DNA of 64,000 nucleotides from an uncultured Lachnospiraceae bacterium. GTDB lineage: Bacteria > Bacillota > Clostridia > Lachnospirales > Lachnospiraceae. Position 1 is the first letter of the stretch; each line of letters begins with the position of its first letter. Under the pieces are notes generated by a model that was not told the origin of the DNA, did not search any database, and saw only the letters and a list, made by a program, of their open reading frames with translations. This document shows positions 19,339 through 32,828 of this stretch, piece after piece. The DNA is taken from assembly GCA_947626435.1 (NCBI GenBank), contig CANQSB010000006.1, positions 62,001 through 126,000 on the forward strand. The letters are read 5' to 3'. Both the position numbers and the translations under genes were made by a program.

Positions 19339-19647
19339 TCAGTAAAATGTATACCAAAAATCATACAAATCTTCTTCAAAAGGCGGCTGACACCCCACTA
19401 ATCCGGCTGTAGCATTGATGAGCATCTGCATATCAGATAGACCGCAATCAAGCAAGATCAAAAGACAAATATCGGCGGTCATAAACAGACCGCTGAAAAA
19501 ATCAAAAATTTTACACACTTTACTTGACAAACCCGTATCAGAATATATTGACTTTTCATAAAGCAAAGAGCTATGGAAAGCTTCGTCAGGTGTGATATAA
19601 CTGGGACAGCGCCATTTTCTTAATCTATGGCTTTCCCTTTTACGTTT
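19339..19647 (-). pseudogene. Possible gene remnant between tadA and the metal-exporter leader
   Basis: The minus strand is open for about 100 codons from a TAG at 19648-19650 to a stop at 19339. There is no ATG with a ribosome site; the best start is a TTG at 19566. The reading includes KWRCPSYITPDEAF and FFSGLFMTADICLLILLDCG, which looks protein-like but matches no family I know. It may be a 3' fragment of a lost gene or chance. Confidence 0.3.
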
Positions 19648-19732
19648 CTAACAAAGATTAGTCGCCACTATGCTTGAAATCAGCATATACATATGCTATA
19701 TTAAATTAAACTCTTTGCACTGCATAAAGCTA

Positions 19733-19830
19733 CAGTACAATCTGAGCAGACCGTGGCGCGGATAGCGCCTTGGAGTCGGGTCGCATACGCGGCAGCGGAT
19801 AGCCTCAACATCTGCGGGACAGTAATTGCT
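19733..19830 (+). promoter_or_regulatory. NiCo riboswitch aptamer (Ni2+/Co2+-sensing)
   Basis: The leader of the CDF gene carries the conserved blocks of the NiCo (czcD-leader) riboswitch in order: CTGAGCAG (19742-19749), a GC-rich hairpin, GTCGGGTCGC...GCGGCAGCGGAT, and ACATCTGCGGGACAGT (19808-19823). The closing stem pairs CAAT/CTG (19738-19744) with CAG/ATTG (19820-19828). I compared it from memory with the published crystallised aptamer, which shows the same order. The family senses cobalt and nickel and usually switches on CDF exporters, exactly the gene downstream. Confidence 0.82.
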
Positions 19831-19860
19831 AATACTGGTACGCGGGTGTTTCTTTTTTCC
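19809..19860 (+). terminator. Riboswitch-controlled intrinsic terminator
   Basis: CATCTGCGGGACAGTA (19809-19824) can pair with TACTGGTACGCGGGTG (19833-19848), leaving an 8-base loop and followed by TTTCTTTTTT. The 5' arm is the 3' half of the aptamer, so metal-bound aptamer and terminator are mutually exclusive: an ON switch. A second hairpin, GCGGGTGTTT with the downstream AAACACCCGC, overlaps the terminator 3' arm and could compete with it. Confidence 0.78.
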
Positions 19861-19931
19861 TTATTTTCCCTAAACACCCGCAAAATTAACGCAAAATAGC
19901 TTGCAGAAGCATCAGAAAGCGAGGTAAAAGT

Positions 19932-20816
19932 ATGGAAAACAACTACGAAAAATCCGCCATGAAGGTATCATTTGTAAGCATCGCCGCAAACACGATTCTT
20001 TCTATTTTTAAGCTGTTTGCAGGAATTTTTGCTAATTCGGGCGCAATGGTGAGCGATGCTATTCACTCCGCGTCAGACGTATTCAGCACCTTTGTCGTGA
20101 TTGTAGGCGTCAAGCTTTCAAGCAAAGCCTCCGACAAAGACCACCCATATGGACACGAGCGCCTTGAATGTGTGGCGGCAATCATCCTCGCCACGATACT
20201 GTGCGCCACAGGTTTAGGCATCGGTTGGACCTCCCTCTCAAACATACTTTCAGGCAATTACGAAATCCTCGAAATCCCCAAACGCTTAGCGCTGATTGCC
20301 GCCGTCATCTCAATACTGGTAAAGGAAGCCATGTACCAGTACACCCGCCTTGTCGCAAAGAAAATAGACTCAGGCGCGCTTATGGCGGACGCATGGCACC
20401 ACCGCTCCGACGCGCTCTCCTCAGTCGGCGCCTTCATCGGTATACTCGGCTCCCGACTGGGCTTTCCCATAATGGACTCATTGGCAAGCCTCGTGATATG
20501 CGTCTTTATCGAAAAAGCGTCCTACGACATCTTCATGGATGCCGTAGACAAAATGGTTGACAAAGCCTGCGACGAAGAAACCGAAACCCAGCTAAGAAAC
20601 TGCGCCATATCCCAACCCGGCGTATTAAACATAGACCTCCTGCGCACCCGCGTATTCGGCAACAAAATATACGTAGACATAGAAATAAGCGCCGACGGCA
20701 GCAAAACCCTGCGCGAAGCCCACTCCATCGCCGAATGCGTACACGACGCCATCGAACAAAACTTCACCAAAGTAAAACACATAATGGTACACGTAAACCC
20801 CGCCAAACAGGATTAA
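19932..20816 (+). CDS. Cation diffusion facilitator (Co/Ni/Zn exporter, CzcD type)
   Basis: 294 residues, typical CDF. Four N-terminal and two later membrane helices; the metal site is D42-x2-H45-x3-D49 (SDAIHSASD) in helix 2 and the HHRSD block (156-160) in helix 5. The HPYGHER loop (71-77) and a cytoplasmic C-terminal domain (about 205-290) are present. It exports divalent metals in exchange for protons. The NiCo riboswitch and terminator upstream indicate cobalt/nickel as the relevant inducers. GAGGT precedes the ATG. It appears monocistronic. Confidence 0.92.
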   Translation: MENNYEKSAMKVSFVSIAANTILSIFKLFAGIFANSGAMVSDAIHSASDVFSTFVVIVGVKLSSKASDKDHPYGHERLECVAAIILATILCATGLGIGWTSLSNILSGNYEILEIPKRLALIAAVISILVKEAMYQYTRLVAKKIDSGALMADAWHHRSDALSSVGAFIGILGSRLGFPIMDSLASLVICVFIEKASYDIFMDAVDKMVDKACDEETETQLRNCAISQPGVLNIDLLRTRVFGNKIYVDIEISADGSKTLREAHSIAECVHDAIEQNFTKVKHIMVHVNPAKQD

Positions 20817-20902: not shown

Positions 20903-21151
20903 ATGAAATACAAAACCAACGGCACCTGCTCAACCATGATCGATTTAGACATAGACGGCGACGTCATACGCTCAGTAGCATTCACAAACGGCTGCAACGG
21001 CAACCTCCAAGGCATCTCAAGCCTTGTCAGAGGCATGAAAGTCGACGACGCGATAAATAAACTAAAAGGCATAAAATGCGGCTTCAAAAGCACCTCCTGC
21101 CCCGACCAGCTCGCCCGAGCACTCGAAGCTTACAAAGCAGGCGAACATTAA
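20903..21151 (+). CDS. TSCPD domain protein (TIGR03905-like)
   Basis: 82 residues. Conserved GTCSTMIDLDIDGDVI at the start, FTNGCNGNLQGISSLVRGM in the middle, and the eponymous TSCPDQLARAL at the end, with four well-placed cysteines that could bind metal. A stand-alone TSCPD domain is also found at the end of some ribonucleotide reductases; the function of the solo form is not known. AGGAGG lies nine bases before the ATG and a clear sigma-A promoter precedes it. murG follows after 66 bases on the same strand. Confidence 0.85.
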   Translation: MKYKTNGTCSTMIDLDIDGDVIRSVAFTNGCNGNLQGISSLVRGMKVDDAINKLKGIKCGFKSTSCPDQLARALEAYKAGEH

Positions 21152-30288: not shown

Positions 30289-31011
30289 TTATATATTAAT
30301 CTGCGAAAATATCTCCCCAATACTGCCCGTAACCACCAAATCCGCCATAGCATCCCTAGGCGTAGGCGTCTTATTTATCAATACCAGCCTGTCACCCCTG
30401 TAATAATCTATCAACCCCGCCGCCGGATACACCGCAAGCGAAGTCCCCCCGATAATAAGCATATCCGCCTCGCTAATAGCCTTCACAGCCCCCTGCAGCG
30501 TCCTCTGGTCAAGCCCCTCCTCATAAAGCACCACATCCGGCTTAATCCTTCCGCCGCACTCACAAGTCGGAATCCCCTCGGAGTTCTTAATCACCCCCAC
30601 ATCAAAAAACTTCCCGCACTTCTCACAATAATTCCTAAGCACACTGCCATGCAGCTCATAAACGCACTTACTCCCCGCCGCTTGGTGAAGCCCGTCAATA
30701 TTCTGCGTCACCACAGCCGTAAGCTTCCCCTTCTCCTCAAGCCTCGCAAGCGCCAAATGCGCCGCATTAGGCTTCGCATCCAAAAACAACATCTTGTCCC
30801 GATAAAACCTAAAAAACTCATCCGGACGCTTCACATAAAAAGTATGGCTCAAAATAGTTTCCGGCGGATAATCATACTTCTGATTATAAAGCCCATCCAC
30901 ACTCCTAAAATCAGGAATCCCACTCTCCGTAGACACCCCCGCTCCTCCAAAAAACACAATGCGCTCACTCGCATCAATCATCTCCTGCAGTTTCTCAATC
31001 ACATTTTCCAT
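30289..31011 (-). CDS. Sirtuin NAD-dependent protein deacylase
   Basis: 240 residues. NAD-binding FFGGAGVSTESGIPDFRS (20-37), TQNIDGLH, catalytic H121 (YELHGSV), and a zinc site C129/C132 with C150/C152 (CxC rather than the usual CxxC in the second pair). GGTSLAVYPAAGL and LINK complete the Rossmann part. It removes acyl groups from lysines, using NAD. Upstream lie a 20-base tandem repeat and a 235-bp inverted-repeat element. It may be in one unit with the GH25 lysozyme gene, but the spacing of more than 460 bases argues against this. Confidence 0.92.
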   Translation of the reverse strand: MENVIEKLQEMIDASERIVFFGGAGVSTESGIPDFRSVDGLYNQKYDYPPETILSHTFYVKRPDEFFRFYRDKMLFLDAKPNAAHLALARLEEKGKLTAVVTQNIDGLHQAAGSKCVYELHGSVLRNYCEKCGKFFDVGVIKNSEGIPTCECGGRIKPDVVLYEEGLDQRTLQGAVKAISEADMLIIGGTSLAVYPAAGLIDYYRGDRLVLINKTPTPRDAMADLVVTGSIGEIFSQINI

Positions 31012-31227: not shown

Positions 31228-31462
31228 GGAAGTCGGTCGTCTATGTCGGGGCGAAGTGCCTTGGCTGCGGATGGTGAATTTCCTTATGTAATGCTCGAAA
31301 ACCCAGGCGGAAATTTGCACGGATGCAAATTTCAGGCTTGACTGCGGCACGGACGCCGCATTCAAGCCGGCGCCGACCGTCCGAGAACACCCACGCGCAT
31401 TACATTAGGAAATTCACCATCCGCAGACACGCACGCCGCCCCGACATAGACGACCGACTTCC
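31228..31462. repeat. 235-bp nested inverted-repeat (cruciform-like) element
   Basis: Outer arms are a perfect 26-base inverted repeat (31228-31253, 31437-31462; GGAAGTCGGTCGTCTATGTC...). Inner arms are 27 bases with one mismatch (31267-31293, 31398-31424). Between them are hairpins GAAATTTGCA/TGCAAATTTC and GGCTTGACTGCGGC/GCCGCATTCAAGCC. GC content is higher than in the surroundings. No open frame spans it. It could be a structured RNA or a non-autonomous element. Confidence 0.75.
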
Positions 31463-31477: not shown

Positions 31478-32614
31478 CTACTCCCAAACCCTCTCATAAG
31501 CCACATTCAAATCCACATCCCCCTTCACTCCATCAACTCTCCCCTTCTCCGTATACTGCCAACAACTCACCTCATACGGAAAATACATATAGTCATCATA
31601 AAACGCATACCACTTCTCATAATCCTCCAACCTCCCCATATCAAGCAGCTTCGTAAAACACTTAATATTCCCATAAATCATAGGCACATACCCCGCCGCT
31701 TTCACCGCCTCGCAAAACGCGACAGCCACATTCGTCCTCTCCTCCATACTAAGCCCATTAGCCCGCGCATTCTCCCCCAAAATAAGCTCCACATCAAAAA
31801 CAATCGGGCACCTCACATCATACCCCTCAATACTCTCAAGCACGAACTGCGCCTCCTCGACAGCCTCAGCCTCATTCACCGCCTGCGTGAAAAAATACAC
31901 GCCGGTTTCCACGCCTGCCGCCGCCGCGCCGCTCATATTCTCCTCAAAATACTCGTCAAGCGCAAGCTTACCCGTACTATACCCGCGTATTCCAAGCCGC
32001 ACGAACGCATATTCAATCCCATCAGCCTTAGCCTTCTCCCAGTCAATGCTTCCCTGGTATTTCGACACATCCATCCCCTTGTGGGAAGTAACTGTGCCAT
32101 TTTCTATGTACTCCATCTCGCCCGCGTCATTCTCAACAAGATTTTCAGGCAAAATATCATGCATTTTCAGGCTCTCATCCACAGGCGCAAACACATACTC
32201 CTCCTCGTCGTAGTAGATAAGGTTTTCAGGGAAAAACGCGCGCAGCATTTTCAAGGGGCTGCCATCGTCACTCACGACAAGCTCCTTCATTCTCTGCTTT
32301 ATGGAATCCTCAACCTCATGCTCCTTCTCAGCCAAAAGCTCATCTATATTCCCACTGCCTCCCCCGCTTGGAAGCACAAGCCCACTCTCATCCGGCACAT
32401 CAGGATTTACGGCATTTACATCGCTTGAAATCGCCGCTACCGCAAGCTCTCCCTGAAGCTGTTCATTCTCATCCCTAAACCTCGACGCAGTCTTTGCCGC
32501 AGCTATGTACAGCACGAAAAAAACTCCCGCCAAGGTAAGCGCTACCACTGTGATAACAGTCATTATAATTATGCTTATACCCGCCACATTCTTTTTTCTC
32601 GTCCTCGTTCCCAT
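31478..32614 (-). CDS. Membrane-anchored GH25 muramidase (lysozyme)
   Basis: 378 residues. A basic tail and one membrane helix (IIIMTVITVVALTLAGVFFVLYIA) form a type II anchor, followed by a linker with a coiled-coil stretch (about 45-110). The GH25 domain (about 175-378) has KGMDVSKYQGSIDW with the first catalytic Asp, YAFVRLGIRGY, ETGVYFFTQA, IVFDVELIL and MIYGN. It cleaves between MurNAc and GlcNAc. ATG at 32614 has GGAGG six bases upstream. No holin or phage genes are nearby, so a cell-wall remodelling role is likely. Confidence 0.9.
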   Translation of the reverse strand: MGTRTRKKNVAGISIIIMTVITVVALTLAGVFFVLYIAAAKTASRFRDENEQLQGELAVAAISSDVNAVNPDVPDESGLVLPSGGGSGNIDELLAEKEHEVEDSIKQRMKELVVSDDGSPLKMLRAFFPENLIYYDEEEYVFAPVDESLKMHDILPENLVENDAGEMEYIENGTVTSHKGMDVSKYQGSIDWEKAKADGIEYAFVRLGIRGYSTGKLALDEYFEENMSGAAAAGVETGVYFFTQAVNEAEAVEEAQFVLESIEGYDVRCPIVFDVELILGENARANGLSMEERTNVAVAFCEAVKAAGYVPMIYGNIKCFTKLLDMGRLEDYEKWYAFYDDYMYFPYEVSCWQYTEKGRVDGVKGDVDLNVAYERVWE

Positions 32615-32828
32615 CAATTTCCTCCCGAAACAGCACGCGCTGCCGCCTTTCTAATCTGTGCTATTTTTATATTACACTAATAACACAATATATGCAAATG
32701 TATATAATGTATATATTGGAATAATTTTTATTTTCAATTTTTTGATTGTCTGCCGGTTAATAATTGATTTCCGCAAAGAGAAAAATTTGTGATATAATGT
32801 TTAACAAACATTGGAGGCTGATAATGAT

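Follow-up and report, generated by a model that had tools for sequence, protein, structure and literature searches.

A NiCo riboswitch ahead of a CDF exporter gene, with a probable third state in its read-through RNA and a putative translational layer

Introduction

The window (the whole stretch of 64,000 nucleotides analysed here) carries, in front of a CDF exporter gene, a leader that an initial annotation made from the letters assigned to the NiCo riboswitch class. The locus raises the question of where such a device begins and ends. Riboswitch annotation stops here at the aptamer model, and descriptions of the class stop at the terminator. The publications identified by PMC numbers below are represented by excerpts; in the NiCo descriptions covered by these excerpts, a scope outside which Furukawa 2015 and Xu and Cotruvo 2022 fall, elements beyond the terminator are not mentioned. 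In the window, strands with candidate pairing partners lie on both sides of the aptamer and terminator, and they were compared with the corresponding strands of related leaders. The initial annotation covered the downstream hairpin but not the 5′ strand, the 3′ element, or the Shine-Dalgarno pairing.

Leaders and comparisons

A NiCo match was present in 21 of 38 genomes of the genus, 77 of 397 of the family, 87 of 392 of the order, and 99 of 398 of the phylum, the samples overlapping one another. Every match in the genus and family samples, but only some of those from the order and phylum, contributed a leader, and 202 leaders were usable. Rows were dropped for a contig end (L004), a score below the cut-off (L097–L099), or a U tract that was not detected (L195), and the duplicate loci L111, L113, L120, L121, and L148 were counted once. 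The pairing tests did not include leaders whose downstream part was short, and n is given for each test. L020, to which a wrong start codon had been assigned, was excluded from the swap tests, the duplex and 5′–3′ complementarity tests, and the broad comparison of Shine-Dalgarno (SD) flanks.

In the swap test, pairing of the terminator 3′ half was computed for each leader both with the downstream stretch of that leader and with those of other leaders, kinship being uncorrected by a tree. The hold-out set consisted of 80 loci minus 14 duplicates and 8 unparsable loci; it was selected for an exact 5′ strand (see below, 5′ strand and candidate helix P0), and its lineages are not independent.

Aptamer and exporter gene

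The core of the locus consists of two features:

19732..19824, + strand, NiCo riboswitch aptamer (RF02683), full-length covariance model match, 73.5 bits
19932..20816, + strand, CDF cation exporter, 294 aa (PF01545, E 1.4e-46; PF16916, E 7.5e-22; TIGR01297, E 4.9e-66)

The covariance search confirmed the class that had been proposed: all 96 positions of the RF02683 model were matched at 73.5 bits (E 3.8e-15), the gathering score being 37. This aptamer is the only NiCo match in the genome assembly, and NiCo was the only family among Rfam matches at E up to 0.01 in 19600–20000, one lower-scoring match of the same clan being omitted. The consensus helices have 26 pairs present in the window, 23 of them standard and the other three U-U, C-A, and U-U. 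The GGG and GGGAC blocks agree with the RF02683 consensus in the alignment; in the numbering of the NiCo crystal structure, the metal-coordinating guanines are G45–G47, G87, and G88 (PMC7689651, excerpt). Taken alone, the aptamer folds no better than its own shuffles (z −0.09; 89 of the 200 do as well), and the class assignment therefore rests on the covariance model.

The aptamer is placed upstream of a metal exporter gene, as the class expects. The exporter does not reach the cut-offs of the metal-specific equivalogs, among them DmeF and FieF, and because it falls below both of these models it cannot decide the ligand. The same switch may have Fe(II) rather than Ni(II)/Co(II) as its natural ligand, an option that we regard as tenable though somewhat doubtful and that is compatible with the architecture proposed below. 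Fe(II) responses have been obtained in vitro and in E. coli, with the cognate metal called unclear (PMC7689651); elsewhere the class is listed as Fe2+-binding (PMC11477304) or as possibly sensing Fe2+ (PMC9481103). Against this, the original characterisation used Ni2+ and Co2+, as cited in the excerpts of the same three papers (PMC7689651, PMC11477304, PMC9481103).

The gene 3′ of the exporter (20903–21151, + strand) encodes a TSCPD-domain protein (PF12637, TIGR03905) with no assigned function. Elsewhere in the window, a TwoAYGGAY RNA (RF01731) was strongly matched at 31262–31429 (+ strand, 112.9 bits). It is flanked by − strand ORFs at 30289–31011 (sirtuin-like) and 31478–32617 (GH25 lysozyme-like), both named by eye, and has no + strand gene directly downstream.

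Terminator

The 3′ end of the aptamer is shared with a terminator:

19807..19860, + strand, intrinsic terminator and U tract overlapping the aptamer 3′ end (15 pairs, fold calculations)

The lower stem joins 19807–19816 to 19841–19850 and the upper stem 19820–19824 to 19833–19837. A terminator of 16 bp built from the 3′ half of the aptamer had been described. Terminator and T tract are present, but the stem has 15 pairs (two of them G-U), is interrupted by a 3 × 3 internal loop, and is closed by an 8-nt loop; reuse of the aptamer 3′ end likewise stands, but it extends over the last 18 nt (the P4 and P1 3′ strands) rather than half of the aptamer. The tract TTTCTTTTTTCC (19849–19860) comes next.

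The fold of 19809–19860 reaches −17.4 kcal/mol (z −3.77; equalled by 1 of 200 shuffles), and the probability of the lower stem is 1.0 in a transcript ending at 19858, with no metal in the model. A forced aptamer excludes the terminator by construction, because the strands are shared. A simple terminator scan returned no site in the region, which may be explained by the limits of the scan (loop of 3–8 nt, T window right after the stem). A bound NiCo aptamer that blocks an overlapping terminator stem is a published design (PMC7917058, PMC7689651; excerpts); the overlap seen here is that ON-switch design and hence ordinary. Positions 19732–19824 with the overlapping terminator are a plain new member of the known NiCo class.

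Post-terminator hairpin

The 3′ arm of the terminator has a second partner, downstream of the U tract:

19842..19881, + strand, post-terminator hairpin (19842–19851/19872–19881) that begins within and shares the terminator 3′ arm (fold against shuffles, conservation)

An additional downstream hairpin able to pair with this arm had been noticed at the outset, and the calculations bear it out: 10 perfect pairs enclose a loop of 20 nt in which most of the U tract lies, the fold of −15.0 kcal/mol was equalled by none of 200 shuffles (z −5.90), and the pairing is conserved among relatives. When the leader was folded freely to 19931, the downstream hairpin had a probability of 0.95 and the terminator 0.05; with the aptamer forced, the hairpin rose to 0.97.

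The timing of transcription limits what this hairpin can do. Its arm 19872–19881 is transcribed at least 12 nt after the U tract, and the hairpin is therefore unable to alter termination. It uses the terminator 3′ arm and outcompetes the terminator in the complete leader, as a true antiterminator with three states at the termination decision would, but with the second arm made so late such a role is highly improbable. The three-state switch suggested initially thus survives as a post-decision state of the read-through RNA and is unlikely at the decision itself. More likely, the hairpin holds the released terminator strand in the read-through RNA, and it fits the metal-bound read-through RNA in particular because the terminator 3′ half would otherwise be free there.

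Candidate roles that were rejected are a second + strand terminator (no T run after 19881), a − strand terminator (no T run after the hairpin), and an antiterminator (arm appearing too late). In one leader of the same genus (L005), about 98 nt are inserted between the post-terminator hairpin and the 3′ element described below, the leader being otherwise near-identical; the hairpin before the insert and the 3′ element after it are both retained.

Conservation of the post-terminator pairing

Among 106 leaders with the 5′ strand, the terminator 3′ half pairs better with its own downstream arm than with those of other leaders (z −8.7, 0/5000 permutations). The preference was also seen within the family (n = 60, z −6.8) and the genus (n = 18, z −3.0), and it was weak in the order and phylum leaders with the 5′ strand (n = 28, z −2.1). 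Leaders without the 5′ strand gave z −2.7 (n = 33, 22/5000). When leaders were separated by terminator type, z was −5.3 for type 1 (n = 49) and −5.6 for type 2 (n = 90); within type 2 it was −5.3 with the 5′ strand (n = 63) and −1.3, not significant, without it (n = 27). In the hold-out set, 55 of the 58 leaders entered the test, and the energies were −14.08 kcal/mol for own arms vs −11.34 kcal/mol for swapped ones (z −8.6, 0/10000).

Comparison with shuffled sequences gave smaller effects. The mean z of the downstream pairing was −1.68 in the genus and, for leaders with the 5′ strand, −0.90 in the family; in the order and phylum it was −0.49 with and −0.39 without that strand. The corresponding reversed controls were −0.36, −0.18, +0.41, and −0.07. 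Uninterrupted downstream helices of at least 8 pairs occur in 29 of 139 leaders, vs 14.3% in swaps, and 110 of the 139 have none. In the energy model, the downstream arm came out ahead of the terminator in 7/19 genus, 6/63 family, and 3/38 order and phylum leaders with the 5′ strand (0 when shuffled), and in 5/42 order and phylum leaders without it (1 when shuffled).

The comparisons between leaders thus make the downstream pairing look as if it is under selection, most strongly in this genus. Outside the genus, the pairing would need, according to the energy model, the aptamer to hold its own strands.

These results bear on another reading of the locus, an ordinary two-state NiCo riboswitch in which neither the downstream hairpin nor the 5′ and 3′ elements take part in regulation, being products of chance or shared ancestry, or relics. 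The core architecture is indeed as in print (PMC7917058, PMC7689651; excerpts), the shuffle effects are modest outside the genus, and most leaders lack an uninterrupted downstream helix of 8 or more pairs. The swap tests speak against it (z −8.7 and −8.6, the preference holding inside terminator types as well), as does the finding that exact motifs from the 5′ and 3′ elements lie only beside NiCo aptamers in the genomes searched (9/9 and 5/5, detailed below). We judge this reading to be quite improbable.

5′ strand and candidate helix P0

Upstream of the aptamer, the following features were recognised:

19674..19702, + strand, likely promoter, TTGAAA, 17 nt, TATATT, with TG before the second hexamer (10/12 consensus matches)
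19711..19724, + strand, conserved 5′ strand CUCUUUGCACUGCA, close to where the transcript is predicted to begin (comparison among leaders)
19715..19740, + strand, candidate helix P0, 19715–19722 with 19733–19740 (seven pairs, one C-A mismatch)

The promoter scan taken alone is weak, with 2 promoter-like sites found in the region vs 1.0 (sd 1.0) expected. The TTGAAA-17-TATATT site lies directly upstream of the 5′ strand, in agreement with its position in relatives as judged by eye. In 129 of 202 leaders, the 10-nt core of the 5′ strand is matched with no more than 2 mismatches. Among 150 family genomes, the exact 15-mer CTCTTTGCACTGCAT was found in 9, in all 9 upstream of a NiCo match; its distance to the aptamer is 4–28 nt in eight of them and 226 nt in one, where Ns adjoin the aptamer.

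Part of the 5′ strand, UUGcACUG, is complementary to CAGUaCAA, which corresponds to the conserved, unpaired positions 2–9 of RF02683. This P0 pairing was followed through 59 distinct pairs of 5′ strand and aptamer (131 leaders), of which 22 differ from the consensus in the core. In 12 of the 22 the seven pairs are all intact, in 5 one pair is broken, and in 5 at least two are (three of these perhaps being false matches). A G-C pair is replaced by A-U in L145, and a U-A pair by C-G in L179, where the adjoining pair is broken. In L094, L112, L165, and L179, a standard pair stands in place of the C-A mismatch. Against shuffles the signal is weak, with 396 paired cells compared to a mean of 393.6 (sd 1.0, maximum 399), that is, 2.4 sd above the mean.

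With the aptamer forced, the probability of P0 is 0.85 when the RNA ends at 19824, and 0.01, 0.06, and 0.0 when it ends at 19858, 19884, and 19931, respectively; in free folds it is at most 0.05. A P0 helix adjoining the aptamer is possible.

Leaders without the 5′ strand (e.g., L100, L103, L115, L117, and L143) are also without the ACAGUA aptamer start, and this joint absence would fit P0 strands that were lost together. In L022, L024, L032, and L042, a variable hairpin (e.g., CATTCC...GGAATG) stands between the 5′ strand and the aptamer; the spacer is about 20 nt longer than in other leaders, as if the hairpin sat in the P0 loop.

3′ element and Shine-Dalgarno region

Between the terminator and the start codon, three further features come into play:

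19902..19916, + strand, 3′ element of the window, in which UGCAG, GCA, and AGA are potential partners of 5′ strand positions 19712–19724 (duplex, minimum-energy folds)
19919..19925, + strand, SD region GCGAGGU, 6 nt before the start codon at 19932
19900..19923, + strand, candidate SD hairpin, CUUGC 19900–19904/GCGAG 19919–19923 (duplex −8.6 kcal/mol)

In the window, the 3′ element binds the 5′ strand with −10.3 kcal/mol (z −2.0, p 0.05), and the pairing is seen in minimum-energy folds. It is mutually exclusive with the SD hairpin, the two having 19902–19904 in common. The SD hairpin had a probability of 0.01 or less in folds of the window. As a window partner of the 5′ strand, GCAAAAUAG (19891–19899) was considered and dropped, since folds and duplexes pick 19902–19916.

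Relatives have a comparable arrangement, though the letters differ from those of the window. AGUGCCAUAGAGCUAUC or a variant of it lies between the terminator and the start codon in 44 leaders when searched with a sequence-only profile, and in 90 of 259 with a broader expression. A search of 150 family genomes for exact copies of the 16-mer GTGCCATAGAGCTATC gave 5 genomes, in 5/5 at 56–213 nt behind a NiCo match. The complementarity of the stretch from the terminator to the SD with the 5′ strand had a mean z of −1.40 in the genus (n = 18), −1.44 in the family (n = 60), −1.13 in the order and phylum (n = 28), and −1.85 in the hold-out set (n = 55), and the reversed-query controls had mean z values of −0.09 to −0.16. 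Values of p below 0.05 were obtained for 27 leaders vs 2 with the reversed query in the family, 6 vs 3 in the order and phylum, and 25 vs 2 in the hold-out set. The swap test of the 5′–3′ pairing was not significant (z −1.3), a test that has little power because there is so little variation in the 5′ strand. Leaders that have lost CUCU from this strand tend to have lost the 3′ element too (43/98 vs 1/31, Fisher 7e-6, kinship ignored; family only, 26/50 vs 1/19).

The 3′ element also varies together with the sequence that follows the SD. CUAUC in the 3′ element is accompanied by GGUAAC after the SD in 48 of 53 leaders, vs 2 of 37 others, and 16 of the 37 leaders without CUAUC have a UUCUU-like SD flank opposite AAGAG-like strands. 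In the SD-flank swap test, own flanks were preferred among 90 leaders (z −4.0, 0/10000) and among the 73 distinct ones (z −3.6, 1/10000). A broad version with 106 leaders gave z −2.5 and was not significant within the genus, family, or order and phylum; in the hold-out set by itself (n = 26), the SD swap test was not significant either (z −1.0). Inspection by eye showed that the candidate SD hairpin has a small hairpin of the GCC-GAAA-GGC type inside its loop in L024, L059, L105, L135, L139, and L140.

In the window ensemble, the SD itself is another partner of the 5′ strand, with a probability of about 0.4. For the leader folded to 19931, the accessibility of 19919–19924 is 0.18–0.36 with the 5′ strand vs 0.41–0.56 without it, and the result is mixed for the leader to 19945. 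A 5′ strand that lowers SD accessibility, as these folds predict, does not fit a simple role in freeing the SD. The putative 5′–3′ and SD pairings are supported by comparison across leaders, and the SD hairpin is unfavoured by the energy model in the window.

Another way to read these strands is that the 5′–3′ pairing and the downstream hairpin mainly shield the 5′ end of the read-through mRNA from nucleases and leave translation uncontrolled. The position of the 5′ strand at the predicted transcript start, with a partner far downstream, would suit such protection, as would a window ensemble that disfavours the SD hairpin. Protection alone does not explain why the 3′ element covaries with the SD flank across leaders, and we consider this reading unlikely.

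Mechanism

The locus is probably a NiCo-class ON riboswitch that attenuates transcription of the CDF exporter gene and has, in addition, a third state in the read-through RNA and a likely translational layer. As expected from the class, in the absence of metal the aptamer end would join the terminator, and transcription would stop at the U tract; with metal, the aptamer would retain its 3′ strands, and RNA polymerase would read through. In the read-through RNA, the freed terminator 3′ half would be captured by the arm that is conserved beyond the U tract. The most likely function of this third state is to keep the terminator hairpin from forming again in the mRNA and disrupting the aptamer. 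A probable second, translational layer of the read-through RNA would be made up of the 5′ strand, the 3′ element, and the SD, and its effect may go in either direction.

A more far-reaching proposal is that a widespread NiCo subtype is a two-layer device, in which downstream strands lock the ON fold and a 5′ strand shared between P0 and the anti-SD pairing relays the state of the aptamer to translation. We put this forward tentatively and consider it rather doubtful. Both this proposal and the explanation preferred above are weakened by the window folds, which disfavour P0 in long RNA and the SD hairpin.

Conserved and partly covarying pairings that run past the terminator to the start codon, and others that precede the aptamer, occur in many Clostridia. 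If these pairings function as proposed, NiCo switches of this subtype exert control at two levels, and reporter constructs truncated at the terminator or at position 1 of the model lose part of the device. The conserved, unpaired positions 2–9 of RF02683 would then gain a possible partner in P0.

Comparison with known systems

The NiCo class has been described with 783 representatives, tandems being absent in the excerpt (PMC9481103). The locus resembles the NiCo (czcD) riboswitch RF02683 in its full-length aptamer, its exporter gene, and a terminator that reuses the aptamer 3′ end (PMC7917058, PMC7689651; excerpts). Unlike the 96-position RF02683 model, the window has a 5′ strand, a candidate P0, and conserved pairings after the terminator.

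Riboswitches with anti-SD and anti-anti-SD strands, such as btuB cobalamin, offer a parallel, in that one strand has as its partner either the ribosome-binding region or another strand of the leader (PMC7689651, excerpt). In those riboswitches, however, the anti-SD is the main expression platform, whereas here it would supplement a terminator, with a link to the ligand that is putative.

The yybP-ykoY Mn2+ riboswitch is a metal-sensing leader before metal exporters, as is the leader in the window. Mn2+ riboswitches modulate both transcription and translation (PMC11477304, excerpt), and the two levels of control considered here have been reported for the yybP-ykoY class, which differs in being a separate Rfam family. 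Set beside these systems, the locus is an ordinary NiCo core in surroundings that are unusual and largely reproducible.
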